DNA from: Cognaticolwellia beringensis
GTDB taxonomy: Bacteria; Pseudomonadota; Gammaproteobacteria; Enterobacterales; Alteromonadaceae
Direction of reading: 5' to 3'
Length of the DNA: 64,000 nt
Assembly (NCBI RefSeq): GCF_002076895.1
Contig: NZ_CP020465.1
Span: 248,001-312,000 of the forward strand
Position 1 is the stretch's first letter, and each line of letters starts with the position of its first letter. Of the stretch, positions 15,131 to 26,395 are shown one piece after another. The notes below the pieces were generated by a model. That model saw nothing but the letters and a program-made list of their open reading frames with translations, was not told the DNA's origin and made no database searches. The translations under genes and the position numbers were made by a program.

Positions 15131-16240
15131 ATGTCAAACTCAACCTTAACTGCGCCTGTCGCAACTGAAATGCCTAAAAGCAGATTAAATGATATTCACG
15201 TAAACGCCGAGGAAGTACTCATTACTCCTAATGCTTTGCGAGAAGAGTTACCCCTACCGGAAGCGGGACGTGTTTTTGTTAAAAACGCTCGAAACATCAT
15301 CGCTAATATTATTCACAAACAAGATCATCGTTTATTAGTTATCGCTGGTCCCTGTTCTGTTCATGATCTTGAAGCCGCAAAAGCTTATGCAAGAAAATTG
15401 AAAGTATTACACGATAAGTACCAAGATAGTTTGTACATAGTTATGCGAGTTTATTTTGAAAAGCCTCGCACTACTGTTGGTTGGAAAGGCCTTATTAATG
15501 ACCCGCATATGGATGGTTCATTTGATGTAGAAAGTGGTCTTCGTAAAGCACGTGAATTATTAATTTATTTAACTGAATTAGGACTGCCTTTGGCGACTGA
15601 AGCGCTCGATCCTATCAGCCCACAATATTTGGCAGAGTTATTTAGTTGGTCGGCCATTGGTGCTCGCACTACAGAGTCACAAACGCACCGAGAAATGGCT
15701 AGTGGTTTATCAATGCCTATTGGTTTTAAAAATGGTACGAGTGGAGGTCTTGGCGTTGCTATTAATGCCTTACAGTCAGCGGCGTCGTCACATCGTTTTA
15801 TGGGTATTAATCGCTTAGGGCAAGTAGCCTTAATTAAAACGTCAGGTAACCCTGATGGGCATGTTATTTTGCGAGGCGGGAAAAAACCAAACTATGATGC
15901 AGAAAATGTTGCTTTATGTGAAGAAGAATTAGCAAAACAAAATTTAGAACCTGGTATCGTAGTCGACTGCTCTCATGGTAACTCTAATAAAGATTACCGC
16001 CGCCAACCCATTGTGGCCGACAATGTTTTCGATCAAATTTGTGCAGGCAACAAGACAATTATTGGTATCATGTTAGAAAGTAATATTAACTCAGGAAATC
16101 AAAGTTCTGATCTACCATTTGAACAACTTCAATATGGTGTTTCTGTCACTGATGCTTGTATTGATTTTGATACGACTGAACAGCTTATCTCAGCGGCTAG
16201 TGCTAAACTTGAAGTTGCTTTAAAGAAGCGTATTAATTAA
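15131..16240 (+). CDS. aroF: DAHP synthase, class I (probably tyrosine-regulated)
   Basis: Condenses phosphoenolpyruvate and erythrose 4-phosphate, the first step of the shikimate pathway. The TIM barrel shows LVIAGPCSVHD near residue 72, RVYFEKPRTTVGWKGL near 114-129 and VVDCSHGNSNKDY near 277. The 369 residues fit the AroF/G/H family. The AroF rather than AroG label rests on the operon with tyrA (29-base gap) and the TyrR box, not on effector-site residues. AGGAAAG precedes the ATG. Confidence 0.92.
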   Translation: MSNSTLTAPVATEMPKSRLNDIHVNAEEVLITPNALREELPLPEAGRVFVKNARNIIANIIHKQDHRLLVIAGPCSVHDLEAAKAYARKLKVLHDKYQDSLYIVMRVYFEKPRTTVGWKGLINDPHMDGSFDVESGLRKARELLIYLTELGLPLATEALDPISPQYLAELFSWSAIGARTTESQTHREMASGLSMPIGFKNGTSGGLGVAINALQSAASSHRFMGINRLGQVALIKTSGNPDGHVILRGGKKPNYDAENVALCEEELAKQNLEPGIVVDCSHGNSNKDYRRQPIVADNVFDQICAGNKTIIGIMLESNINSGNQSSDLPFEQLQYGVSVTDACIDFDTTEQLISAASAKLEVALKKRIN

Positions 16241-16269
16241 CTGTTCTTTAATAGGAAGAATCGCTAGTA

Positions 16270-17412
16270 ATGAATAACGAACTTACATTTGAGCAACAAT
16301 TAGGTGAATTACGTGATGAAATTGATGATATCGATAGTCAACTCGTTGCGTTATTAGCTCGGCGTCGTGCTGTTACCACGAAAGTTGGTTTATTGAAAAG
16401 CGAAGCTGGAATACCGATTTTTGCTCCCGAACGAGAAGCTAATTTATTAAAGATTCGTCGACAACAAGCCATAGAGGTTGGGCTGTCACCAGAGTTAATT
16501 GAAGATATTCTCCGCCGCTTGATGCAAGACTCTTATATTAGTCAAGATGCAAGTGGCTACCGATGTGTTCACCCAGATTGTAAAAAAGTTGTTGTTATTG
16601 GTGGAGAAGGTCAATTAGGGCGAATTTTTGTTGATTTATTTAACCGTTCTCATTATCAAGTTCAGTCTTTAGAGCAAGCAGACTGGCCAAATAGTGATGA
16701 AATTTTAGCTGATGTGAGTTTGGTCATCGTTGCTGTACCTATTCGATTAACCGCTATGGTGATCCAAAAATTAGGTTCATTGCCTGAAGATTGTATTTTG
16801 GCCGATGTTACTAGTATTAAAGAAGCGCCGCTGTATGAAATGATGAAAGTGCATGCCGGCCCTGTTGTTGGCTTACACCCAATGTTTGGGCCTGATGTTA
16901 CCGGTTTAGTTAAACAAACTATTATTGCTTGTGAAGGGCGTTTTCCTCAAGAATATAATTGGCTACTAGAGCAATTTCGTGTGTGGGGTGCAAAAATTCA
17001 TCCTGTTGCAGCACACACTCATGATCAAGCGATGTCTATGGTACAAGTTATGAGACATTTCTCGACTATTGCCTATGGTTACCATTTAATGTCTGAAGGC
17101 GCTGATATAGCACAGTTAGTTGAGATGAGTTCACCCATTTATCGCCTAGAGTTGATTATGGTAGGACGTTTATTTGCGCAAAACCCAATACTCTATACCG
17201 ATATTATTTTTGCCAATCAGGATAACATTGCTATGATGAAGCGCTTTGCTTATCGGTTTTTAGAATTGCTCGAAGACGTGCAATTAAATGAGAAAGAAGC
17301 TTTTACAAAAATGTTTACACAAGTTGCTGATTGGTTTGGTGACTATGCCGATATTTTCATGCAGGAAAGCAAAGAGATGTTAATAAAAGCAGATCAGCTA
17401 AAGAAGCACTAA
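16270..17412 (+). CDS. tyrA: Chorismate mutase / prephenate dehydrogenase (T-protein)
   Basis: A bifunctional tyrosine-branch enzyme turning chorismate to prephenate and then to 4-hydroxyphenylpyruvate with NAD+. Residues 1-90 are an AroQ-type chorismate mutase (LRDEIDDIDSQLVALLARRR). The dehydrogenase starts with the nucleotide-binding VVVIGGEGQLGRIF (GGEGQLG at 111-117), followed by VGLHPMFGPDV. The 380-residue length matches E. coli TyrA. Second gene of the aroF operon. Confidence 0.96.
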   Translation: MNNELTFEQQLGELRDEIDDIDSQLVALLARRRAVTTKVGLLKSEAGIPIFAPEREANLLKIRRQQAIEVGLSPELIEDILRRLMQDSYISQDASGYRCVHPDCKKVVVIGGEGQLGRIFVDLFNRSHYQVQSLEQADWPNSDEILADVSLVIVAVPIRLTAMVIQKLGSLPEDCILADVTSIKEAPLYEMMKVHAGPVVGLHPMFGPDVTGLVKQTIIACEGRFPQEYNWLLEQFRVWGAKIHPVAAHTHDQAMSMVQVMRHFSTIAYGYHLMSEGADIAQLVEMSSPIYRLELIMVGRLFAQNPILYTDIIFANQDNIAMMKRFAYRFLELLEDVQLNEKEAFTKMFTQVADWFGDYADIFMQESKEMLIKADQLKKH

Positions 17413-23925: not shown

Positions 23926-24213
23926 GTACAGGATGTACGGTATGCCGTGGTGACAGGACGTCAATGAACGGCGGTACAGGATGTACGGTATGCCGTGGTG
24001 ACAGGACGTCAAAGAACGGCGGTACAGGATGTACGGTATGCCGTGGTGACAGGACGTCAATGAACGGCGGAACAGGATGTAAGGTATGCCGTGGTGACAG
24101 GACGTCAATGAACGGCGGAACAGGATGTACGGTATGCCGTGGTGACAGGACGTCAATGAACGGCGGAACAGGATGTACGGTATGCCGTGGTGACAGGACG
24201 TCAATGAGCGGGG
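23926..24213. repeat. Six-copy 48-bp tandem repeat
   Basis: Units start at 23926, 23974, 24022, 24070, 24118 and 24166. Each begins GTACAGGATGTACGG or GAACAGGATGTACGG and ends with CAATGAACGGCG; the last unit decays at its 3' end. Units 1-3 start GTAC and units 4-6 start GAAC; only a few other substitutions occur. Each unit contains two related submotifs (ACAGGATGTAC and ACAGGACGTCA). It is about 56% G+C in an A+T-rich surround. Because 48 is a multiple of three, open frames run through it on both strands, but these are not convincing genes. Confidence 0.95.
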
Positions 24214-24239
24214 GAATATTTAAAAGCGGTCTTTGATTA

Positions 24240-24846: not shown

Positions 24847-26025
24847 TTATAGCAATGCGCTACTCGGTACATTAGTAGGGCTAATGTGCTCGATAGGGTA
24901 ACAGCCTAAAATTTTAATGAAATTTGTTTGTTCAGTGATTTGGCTTATCGCTTCTTGTAACGCTAAGTGTTTCAAGTTTGCTTCGACATCTACATAGAAC
25001 ATTTCTTCCCAAGGACGACCTTGAATGGGGCGCGACTCAAGTTTACACATATTAATACCTTTATTCTTCAATACTAATAAGCATTCAACTAATGCGCCAG
25101 GCTTTTGCCCCGTTGCTATAATTAGGGTGGTTTTTGCTGGGATTTGTTCAGCAACATCAATAGGTTTACGTGCGACTAAAATAAAACGGCTGTGGTTTTC
25201 AGTTTGGTTGGCGATAGATTTCTCCAAAGCATGTAATTGATATAAATTACCGCCTTCTTCACTGCCAATTACAGCCACACTATCATCTTGTAATTCATAG
25301 ACCTTTGCCATGGCATCGGCCGTACTTTCACAGTATTCAATACGAATATCGCTTTGTTTATCAAGAAAGTTACTACATTGGGCGAACGGCTGTCCATGAG
25401 CATAAATAGTTTTAATTTTATTAAGCTTAGTGTTCACGGCCGTCAGTAAACAGTGCTCAATGGGTTGCGTTATTTCACCAACAATCGACAAATTAGTATG
25501 TTGGAGTATGTCATAAACTTCATTAATACTACCTGAACTGGTGTTCTCTATTGGCAACATGCCATAGTCAACCGAGCCAGATTCAACTTGCTGCATAATT
25601 TCAGCAAAACTTTGGCAACCGCTTTCAATAATTTTCTCTGCACGGCGAGAAAAATAGCGATGGCTTGCTAAGTAGCTGTAACTACCTTTATCACCTAAAA
25701 AGGCCACACTCACTGCGGGCTCTTGCATATTAGGGTTGGCTAAAGTTTGTAAGTAAGCTTGCTGATTGAGCACCGAATCTTCAATAATAGTTTGAAAAAC
25801 ACTAGTAACATAATGCGCATCTAATCCTAGAGTTTTACCTTGTGTGATTAAGCGGATCAATAACTCTTGTTCGCGTTGTTGGTCTCGAACGGGTCGAATA
25901 AGGTGAGCTTTGCTTTTCGCAACATTTAAAGTGAGGGCGCGGCGCTCAGCAAATAGTGCCAGTAACTGCTGATCGAGATGGGTAATTTTTTCACGTATTT
26001 TATTTAAATCTAATGCTTCGTTCAC
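24847..26025 (-). CDS. pheA: Chorismate mutase / prephenate dehydratase (P-protein)
   Basis: A bifunctional phenylalanine-branch enzyme. Residues 1-95 are an AroQ chorismate mutase (KIREKITHLDQQLLALFAER). The prephenate dehydratase starts near 106 with VAFLGDKGSYSYLASHRYF, and an ACT regulatory domain (about 300-385) holds GALVECL and ESRP, the motifs that bind phenylalanine in the family. The length of 392 is normal. The start is GTG at 26025 with AGGA about 10 bases upstream. Expression is predicted to be controlled by the attenuator at 26124-26230. Confidence 0.96.
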   Translation of the reverse strand: MNEALDLNKIREKITHLDQQLLALFAERRALTLNVAKSKAHLIRPVRDQQREQELLIRLITQGKTLGLDAHYVTSVFQTIIEDSVLNQQAYLQTLANPNMQEPAVSVAFLGDKGSYSYLASHRYFSRRAEKIIESGCQSFAEIMQQVESGSVDYGMLPIENTSSGSINEVYDILQHTNLSIVGEITQPIEHCLLTAVNTKLNKIKTIYAHGQPFAQCSNFLDKQSDIRIEYCESTADAMAKVYELQDDSVAVIGSEEGGNLYQLHALEKSIANQTENHSRFILVARKPIDVAEQIPAKTTLIIATGQKPGALVECLLVLKNKGINMCKLESRPIQGRPWEEMFYVDVEANLKHLALQEAISQITEQTNFIKILGCYPIEHISPTNVPSSALL

Positions 26026-26123
26026 CGCGTTTTCCTAATAAGTAGTTATGAGTTTAATTACTGCAATTCTGATATTTTAGTGTTGCCTGTTATTCATTTT
26101 GTTTATTGCTATCACTAAAAATA

Positions 26124-26147
26124 AAAAACCTCCGTGTGGAGGTTTTT
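26124..26147 (-). terminator. pheA attenuator terminator
   Basis: On the minus strand AAAAACCTCC pairs with GGAGGTTTTT across ACAC, followed by T residues. It lies 98 bases upstream of pheA and 26 bases after the leader-peptide stop. Its 5' arm AAAACCT (26146-26140) can pair instead with AGGTTTT (26164-26158), which would form a 7-bp antiterminator. Confidence 0.85.
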
Positions 26148-26173
26148 ATTGAATGCCAAAACCTAAAGCGCGC

Positions 26174-26230
26174 TCAGATAACTGAGAAAAAGAAAGCGTT
26201 AAAGAAAAAAAGTGGTTTTGTCATTTGCAT
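26174..26230 (-). CDS. pheL: pheA leader peptide PheL
   Basis: An 18-codon frame reading MQMTKPLFFFNAFFFSVI then TGA, with six phenylalanines in two runs of three. It starts at the ATG at 26230 or the in-frame ATG at 26224; neither has a strong ribosome binding site. A hairpin CTCAG/CTGAG (26173-26186) overlaps its stop codon, and the antiterminator and terminator follow. The layout matches the E. coli pheL attenuator: ribosome stalling at Phe codons when Phe-tRNA is scarce would favour the antiterminator and let pheA be transcribed. Confidence 0.88.
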   Translation of the reverse strand: MQMTKPLFFFNAFFFSVI

Positions 26231-26395
26231 AGCATTACTTTAGCCACCATCACGCAAGAGTACAACTGTTTCTTTATGCCTATTTCTCTCTAAACCTATA
26301 AAAAAGGCTTATAGCGTGAATTTAGCTACAAGTAACTCAATAACTTTAGCCTTTATATCGGAGTGAGGCCTTACTTATCGTTTGCTTGGCCTAAT

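Follow-up and report, generated by a model that had tools for sequence, protein, structure and literature searches.

A phenylalanine attenuator upstream of pheA in Cognaticolwellia beringensis with a leader peptide probably translated from a leaderless transcript

The region upstream of pheA in Cognaticolwellia beringensis probably encodes a ribosome-mediated attenuator in which ribosomes translate the sensor open reading frame (ORF), pheL, on a leaderless transcript; we infer the transcription start, the ribosome stalling, and the regulation by phenylalanine. All coordinates refer to the window, the whole 64,000-nt stretch of DNA that was analyzed. On the minus strand, the elements follow one another as a -35 element TTGTAC (26260..26265), 17 nt, a -10 element TAAAGT (26237..26242), 6 nt, the ATG at 26230, the MQMTKPLFFFNAFFFSVI ORF, a hairpin at its stop codon, AGGTTTTGGCAT, AAAAACCTCC, GGAGGTTTTTT, and pheA. 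The pheL frame, read directly from the sequence, occupies 57 nt (26230-26174) and consists of MQMTKPLFFFNAFFFSVI plus the stop, with 18 codons, six of them for Phe, and a TGA at 26176-26174. The original prediction had described an 18-codon minus-strand frame ending in TGA, a hairpin over the stop codon, an AGGTTTT/AAAACCT antiterminator, and a CCTCC/GGAGG terminator with a T-run before pheA, and had compared them with E. coli pheL-pheA attenuation. All of these were found in place, and the comparison is borne out by the runs of codons for the pathway product, the intrinsic terminator, the mutually exclusive antiterminator, and their conservation in close relatives. The attenuator had also been called complete, which was true of the ORF, stop hairpin, antiterminator, and terminator, but two elements had been missed, a competing RNA strand within the coding part (strand 1) and a promoter that ends 6 nt ahead of the ATG.

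The downstream gene pheA (24847..26025, minus strand) encodes a bifunctional chorismate mutase/prephenate dehydratase and begins with GTG, preceded by an AGGA Shine-Dalgarno sequence at 26036-26033. Among NCBIfam models, the PheA protein matched PRK10622.1 best, at 556.5 bits just short of the cut-off of 577, and it passed the cut-offs for prephenate dehydratase (PRK11898.1, 224.4/219) and CM_P_1 (95.3/73.7). Among the best 80 records, the nearest named one was Colwellia sp. BRX10-3 (98% identity in PheA); another genome reached 99%. Approximately 9 kb from pheA, on the plus strand (15131-17412), an aroF-like DAHP synthase gene (assigned by eye) is followed by a tyrA gene that resembles those for bifunctional chorismate mutase/prephenate dehydrogenase (also by eye). 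Additionally, a 48-bp tandem repeat in six copies (23928-24216, 97% matches) lies directly after an RND efflux pump gene; its translation gives short peptide repeats on either strand.

An ORF of the pheL plan was present upstream of pheA in each of the 17 genomes examined from the genus (this genome and 16 others), in one of them (G005, locus L003) without a stop codon. Among the 16 ungapped rows of the alignment, codons 10 and 13 were Phe in every one, and codons 8, 9, and 14 were Phe in 14, 13, and 15 rows, respectively; codon 15 was Phe in 3 rows and Leu in 12. The ratio pN/pS was 0.49 in the pheL frame versus 0.77 and 0.97 in the two alternative frames (16 of the 17 rows, given without a significance test). 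The ATG at 26230 was invariant in the 17 genomes, whereas the second ATG, at 26224, was replaced by ACG or AAT in four of them, and we therefore take 26230 as the pheL start; a start at 26224 was disfavored because four genomes lack that codon. These results bear on two statements of the original prediction. It had held that chance was a very unlikely source of the Phe codons, and indeed 17/17 genomes share the leader with its Phe runs and pairings, and pN/pS is lowest in the coding frame. It had also noted a weak ribosome binding site and an uncertain start; the sequence is weak as described, but the start is no longer uncertain, given that the first ATG is invariant and that the conserved sequence before it is a promoter. 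In L003 (positions 1306-1430), a pheA upstream region identical to L054 from Colwellia sp. BRX10-3, 9 nt including the pheL stop are deleted in one assembly only. As a result of this loss, the ORF would read through strands 2 to 4 and end in the T-run, and this leader is possibly a decaying attenuator.

The RNA of the leader can be divided into four strands that pair in alternative ways. Strand 1 (ATGACAAAACC, 26214..26224, minus strand) corresponds to codons 3-6, nt 7-17 of the RNA, and its segment AUGACAAAACC pairs with GGUUUUGGCAU of strand 2. Strand 2 (AGGTTTTGGCAT, 26153..26164, minus strand) includes AGGTTTT (26164-26158) and pairs with either strand 1 or strand 3. Strand 3 (AAAAACCTCC, 26138..26147, minus strand) is at once a partner of strand 2 and the 5' arm of the intrinsic terminator, the 3' arm of which is strand 4 (GGAGGTTTTTT, 26123..26133, minus strand), with a T-run. 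Between strands 1 and 2, a CTCAG/CTGAG hairpin (26173..26186, minus strand) spans the pheL stop codon. The leader thus combines a Phe-run ORF directly before pheA, an intrinsic terminator between this ORF and pheA, and an antiterminator that excludes the terminator and is itself opposed by strand 1.

The pairings were well conserved within the genus. Across the 17 sequences, the proportion of paired cells was 94.1% for 1:2 (the pair A6-U79 included), 96.3% for the stop hairpin, 98.8% for 3:4, and 100% for 2:3, whereas control structures with the partners slid by 1-3 columns reached at most 63% for the whole terminated structure and at most 75% for 2:3. The stop hairpin was absent in L003 owing to its 9-nt deletion, and six of the seven base pairs of the 2:3 antiterminator (AGGUUUU/AAAACCU) were invariant. 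There was one compensatory cell in the terminated structure, compared with 0 to 2 in the slid controls, and none in the 2:3 pairing among the 17 sequences. Covariation was consequently dropped as proof, since the variation was too small and the slid controls did equally well; the pairings are supported by conservation. The original prediction had stated that it would fail if the Phe codons and pairings were not conserved in close relatives; we ran this comparison and found both conserved in the leaders of the genus, although the Colwellia psychrerythraea group, described below, shows no visible leader.

The calculated energies were -7.35 kcal/mol for 1:2, -5.2 for the stop hairpin, -5.2 for 2:3, and -12.8 for 3:4. 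Because the antiterminator is weak compared with the terminator, it must win by forming first. The folding energy of the leader as a whole was modestly unusual (z -2.0; 7 of 200 shuffles folded equally well). When strand 4 was omitted from the fold, 7 nt of strand 3 were paired in 17/17 leaders of the genus, at -5.1 to -13.1 kcal/mol. The corresponding range for 72 leaders of other genera was -10.3 to -23.7 kcal/mol, and strand 3 was wholly unpaired in four of these. By a rough measure of pairing between the coding part and the stretch from the stop to strand 3, which scored nothing in G005, pairing began at nt 1-7 in 16/17 folds of the genus versus 18/72 of the others. The leader of the genus therefore seems to follow the family plan in a shortened and displaced form.

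The promoter is the second feature that the original prediction had missed. The sigma70-type sequence TTGTAC-N17-TAAAGT ends 6 nt upstream of the ATG at 26230, and from this distance the mRNA should begin at the AUG itself, with the A of the ATG at 26230 as the predicted transcription start (minus strand) and a leaderless leader peptide as the outcome. In the own genome the site scored 4.9 bits, tied with another 62 nt upstream, and would not stand out alone; the sigma70 scoring weights were E. coli values. The case for the -10 element rests on conservation, and that for the -35 element on its sequence, on one-per-genus profiles, and on its identical position in 17/17 genomes of the genus. The consensus TTG(A/T)A(C/G)-N17-TA(A/C)AGT-N6-ATG was found in 16/17 of these, the remaining one (L015) having TTGACT with a 16-nt spacer; the variants of TTGTAC in the genus were TTGAAC, TTGAAG, and TTGACT.

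The same geometry extends over the family. The family sample comprised 147 genomes, 136 with a match, and the 136 regions together with those of 11 further genomes of the genus gave 147 pheA upstream regions, among which the genus is over-represented because of this addition. A Phe-rich leader (at least 4 Phe in 10 codons) was called in 91 regions, at least one of which (G050) looks spurious. In 74/91 leaders, the best sigma70 site within 150 nt ended 4-9 nt before an in-frame ATG, with a gap of 6 nt in 55, 7 nt in 18, and 8 nt in 1; an alternative choice of start gave 76/91. Outside the genus the geometry was found in 63 of 74 leaders, and it was present in 32 of the 35 genera with a called leader, nearly always with a gap of 6-7 nt. 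The promoter would thus be placed for transcription to begin at the start codon in these 32 genera. Among the 17 leaders that missed the promoter test were that of this genome and five more of the genus, all six of which have the same promoter site by sequence, tied or outscored by another. In genus g30 the geometry was absent in G090 and G045 and present in G151 and G123. Additionally, four loci of genus g17 (L167, L173, L176, and L177, from G081, G142, G165, and G115) carry a TTGACA/TAGATT promoter with the -10 ending 124-133 nt before pheA; no Phe-rich ORF was called there, and no ATG at 6-7 nt was seen by eye.

In a profile with one leader for each of the 32 passing genera, the information outside the ATG and codon 2 peaked at -35 to -33, -12, -11, -8, and -7 (0.68-1.48 bits), followed by -3 to -1 (0.47-0.65 bits). 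This profile is partly circular, since its rows were chosen by the promoter test, and an unconditioned profile of all 35 genera was therefore made; outside the ATG and codon 2, positions -35 (1.17), -12 (0.73), and -11 (0.63) lead it, followed by -2 (0.58), -33 (0.55), and -7 (0.49). As genomes with only 3 Phe codons in the leader escape the calling rule, which consequently undercounts, we added a count that starts from the motif and dispenses with scores: TTG-N16-18-[TC]AnnnT-N5-8-ATG, where the ATG begins an ORF that has three or more Phe among 8 codons. This motif was found in 97/147 regions, 95 of the 97 with a gap of 6 or 7, whereas the same promoter motif stood before 18 of 715 other ATGs of those regions. 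A shuffle control gave 209/4500 shuffled versus 68/90 real sequences; single letters were shuffled, not dinucleotides, and the leaders of other operons in those genomes provide a better control.

For these controls, the regions upstream of trpE, hisG, leuA, thrA, and ilvG were taken from 30 hand-chosen genomes of 25 genera, all with a pheL leader. Under the same rule, a promoter abutted the leader ATG in 25/30 cases for pheL and 22/25 for thrL, compared with 2/23 for trpL, 4/27 for hisL, 0/24 for leuL, and 0/13 for ilvL among the leaders found. Two of the six attenuators, pheL and thrL, are thus built with a promoter that abuts the ATG. Eighteen of the 22 thrL matches were exactly TTGACA-N17-CAnnnT, and all 22 had gaps of 6 or 7 nt. 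Among the regions upstream of thrA (L330-L359, of which L342 is from the window's own genome), the first base of the thrL -10 was C in 21/22. Between the -35 and -10 of thrL, AGACGTCT occurred in L335, L337, L344, and L353, and GGACGTCT in L345; these sequences resemble a MetJ box.

The anti-Shine-Dalgarno energy near pheL had a median of -2.4 over the 91 leaders and was -4 or below in 25 of them; the medians for trpL (-0.9), leuL (0.35), and ilvL (0.7) were weaker, and that at the pheA start was stronger (-5.55, from the 28/30 genomes in which the start was found). A missing Shine-Dalgarno sequence was therefore dropped as proof of leaderlessness, as trpL, leuL, and ilvL are weaker still and these energies do not separate the groups of leaders. 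What supports the proposed leaderless start is instead the fixed distance across many genera, together with the contrast to the remaining leaders in these genomes.

The sample of the order contained a match in 101/119 genomes, 94 of them outside the family, and 67 of the 94 were examined (60 fetched plus 7). A Phe-rich ORF was found in 35/67, one of which (in family f16, with a TTG start) is probably spurious. The promoter lay at a gap of 6-8 nt in 4/4 leaders of f6, 2/2 of f20, and 5/6 of f9, and at 27-36 nt in 4/4 of f18 and 6/6 of f21; from their leader peptides, f18 would correspond to Enterobacteria-like and f21 to Vibrio-like leaders. In f10 (2), f15 (5), and f25 (5), the best promoter site was outside 6-8 nt. 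Within the 67 genomes, the leaderless layout thus appears restricted to a portion of the order.

At 18 named loci of the Colwellia psychrerythraea group, the calling rule yielded no Phe-rich leader. Nevertheless, 13 of these 18 loci without the leader peptide (L068-L071, L074-L076, L078-L080, L082, L083, and L100) keep the promoter as TTGACA-N18-TAGAGT, 41-57 nt before the GTG of pheA and with no ATG within 15 nt of it. Their spacer measures 18 nt, and a version of the motif with a 17-nt spacer matched none of them. The promoter was not kept at L065, L067, L072, L081, and L084; at L072, a separate and weaker Phe leader can be made out by eye. Since the promoter outlives the leader at 13/18 loci, it is a promoter independently of pheL, and its conservation is not owed to translation of the leader.

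The main competitor to a leaderless pheL is a conventional attenuator, in which the main transcript would start further upstream, the leader would be translated from an ordinary weak ribosome site, and the ATG-adjacent promoter would be minor or a chance likeness. The low promoter score in this genome and the tie with the upstream site speak for it, as do trpL, leuL, and ilvL, which are also without a strong Shine-Dalgarno sequence and yet have room for a 5'UTR, and E. coli pheL, with its gap of 25 nt and AAGGA. Such a transcript would leave unexplained why the -35 and -10 profile is fixed relative to the ATG over many genera, why the other leaders of the same genomes, thrL excepted, rarely show this geometry, and why the Colwellia group mostly kept the promoter without pheL; we regard it as unlikely. 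Considerably less probable is that the attenuator works as described with a peptide starting at the second ATG (26224), which would give a 6-nt leader that is not strictly leaderless and which overlaps the preferred reading in everything except the start. That ATG is present in 13/17 genomes of the genus, but only the first one occurs in all of them, and in the rest of the family a distance of 6-7 nt separates the -10 from the promoter-nearest ATG.

It is least probable of all, to the point of being hardly credible, that the region holds merely an intergenic intrinsic terminator and that a T-rich stretch yielded the Phe-rich ORF by chance. The region is indeed T-rich, its fold beats shuffled sequences only modestly, and the Rfam model discussed below stays under its cut-off and scores slightly better on the opposite strand. 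These points are outweighed by the leader in 17/17 genomes with its Phe runs and frame kept, by specific pairings that are 94-100% kept, and by Phe-rich leaders before pheA in other families; we reject a chance ORF on the conservation of leader and frame across the genus.

The Rfam model Phe_leader (RF01859) gave 24.3 bits on the leader strand, against a gathering cut-off of 55, and no match at the cut-off in the whole 64-kb window; its better score of 27.8 bits, also below the cut-off, was on the plus strand (26056-26152). The inverted repeat of the terminator probably drives both scores, and the model was dropped as evidence because its best match is below the cut-off and on the wrong strand. 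The low score of 24 bits may reflect the shortened and moved leader of the genus. The cut-off was reached by one of 15 loci (L037) of the family and its close named kin, and by 5/5 others, namely two Photobacterium, Vibrio, Oceanimonas, and E. coli, the last with 132.3 bits. The model thus missed 14 of the 15 tested loci of the clade.

The leader shares with E. coli pheL-pheA (RF01859, K-12 record) the two runs of Phe codons, the intrinsic terminator, and pheA downstream, and its antiterminator resembles that of the standard E. coli model. In E. coli K-12, however, the pheL promoter is TTGACA-N18-TACTGT, with 25 nt including AAGGA to the ATG, compared with the gap of 6 nt in Cognaticolwellia. 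By our own reading of the K-12 sequence, its antiterminator is long, of the type GGGAGGCG...CGTC / GACG...CCTCCC, whereas Cognaticolwellia has the 7-bp AGGUUUU/AAAACCU and a strand 1 that precedes the Phe codons.

Leaderless leader peptides have been described in other bacteria. In Sinorhizobium meliloti, PMC7298713 places the 5' end of the trpL attenuator RNA (rnTrpL) at the ATG of the leader ORF; the layout is shared with pheL, but the organism is an Alphaproteobacterium and the operon is trp. According to PMC8079986 and PMC11857589, the leuL, trpL, ilvL, and thrL leaders of Streptomyces lividans and the ilvBNC leader of Corynebacterium glutamicum lack a 5'UTR, and the C. glutamicum ilvBNC hairpin H1, essentially an antiantiterminator, is said to block translation initiation. 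Those leaders belong to another phylum, Actinobacteria, in which leaderless mRNAs are common, as stated in PMC3896937, and thrL of S. lividans precedes thrS, not thrA. The same paper calls leaderless mRNAs rarely found in Proteobacteria. For Shewanella, PMC2659441 predicted a regulatory RNA ahead of pheA and interpreted it as leader-peptide attenuation; it matched the Trp_leader model there, and mRNA 5' ends were lacking for most genes. For Alteromonas macleodii Te101, PMC5864184 reports a primary transcriptome. A pheL attenuator as such is therefore ordinary, pheA leaders being known from the Rfam family and from the Shewanella prediction in PMC2659441. No report of a leaderless pheL or thrL in Gammaproteobacteria was found among the literature matches listed, and the apparent leaderless layout common to pheL and thrL in the family would be new relative to those matches.

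Ribosome-mediated attenuation is the established model for E. coli trp, phe, and his. For the leaderless pheL proposed here, RNA polymerase would initiate at the A of the ATG at 26230, as its promoter geometry suggests, and a 70S ribosome, or a 30S subunit with initiator tRNA, would bind the 5'-terminal AUG. As the RNA would start at nt 1, the ribosome could not use a Shine-Dalgarno sequence and would have to take the bare 5' AUG. When Phe-tRNA is scarce, the ribosome may stall at codons 8-10 or 13-15 and cover strand 1; strand 2 would then be free to join strand 3 ahead of the synthesis of strand 4, allowing transcription of pheA. When Phe-tRNA is plentiful, the ribosome would reach the stop codon, where its footprint would mask strand 2, strands 3 and 4 would form the terminator, and transcription would end near 26123. 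If no ribosome loads, strand 1 would pair with strand 2 and block the antiterminator, making termination the default. The loading step, which would resemble that of S. meliloti trpL and the actinobacterial leaders cited above, would be the new part of the mechanism. The leaderless layout would also account for the weak appearance of the pheL ribosome site.

Since strand 1 (nt 7-17) lies inside the footprint of a ribosome on the 5' AUG, loading and the 1:2 hairpin would be mutually exclusive. It is conceivable, though we hold this only tentatively and consider it rather improbable, that the leaderless start is itself part of the switch, which would report initiation competence (the 70S pool, initiation factors, or stress-altered ribosomes) in addition to Phe-tRNA. 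The pheL and thrL leaders might then constitute a distinct family of attenuators that respond to initiation and occur throughout a clade of marine Gammaproteobacteria, unlike the trp, his, leu, and ilv attenuators in those cells. With two of six attenuators putatively leaderless and four controls in each genome, these bacteria would provide a natural experiment on the cost and gain of loading ribosomes on a bare 5' AUG.
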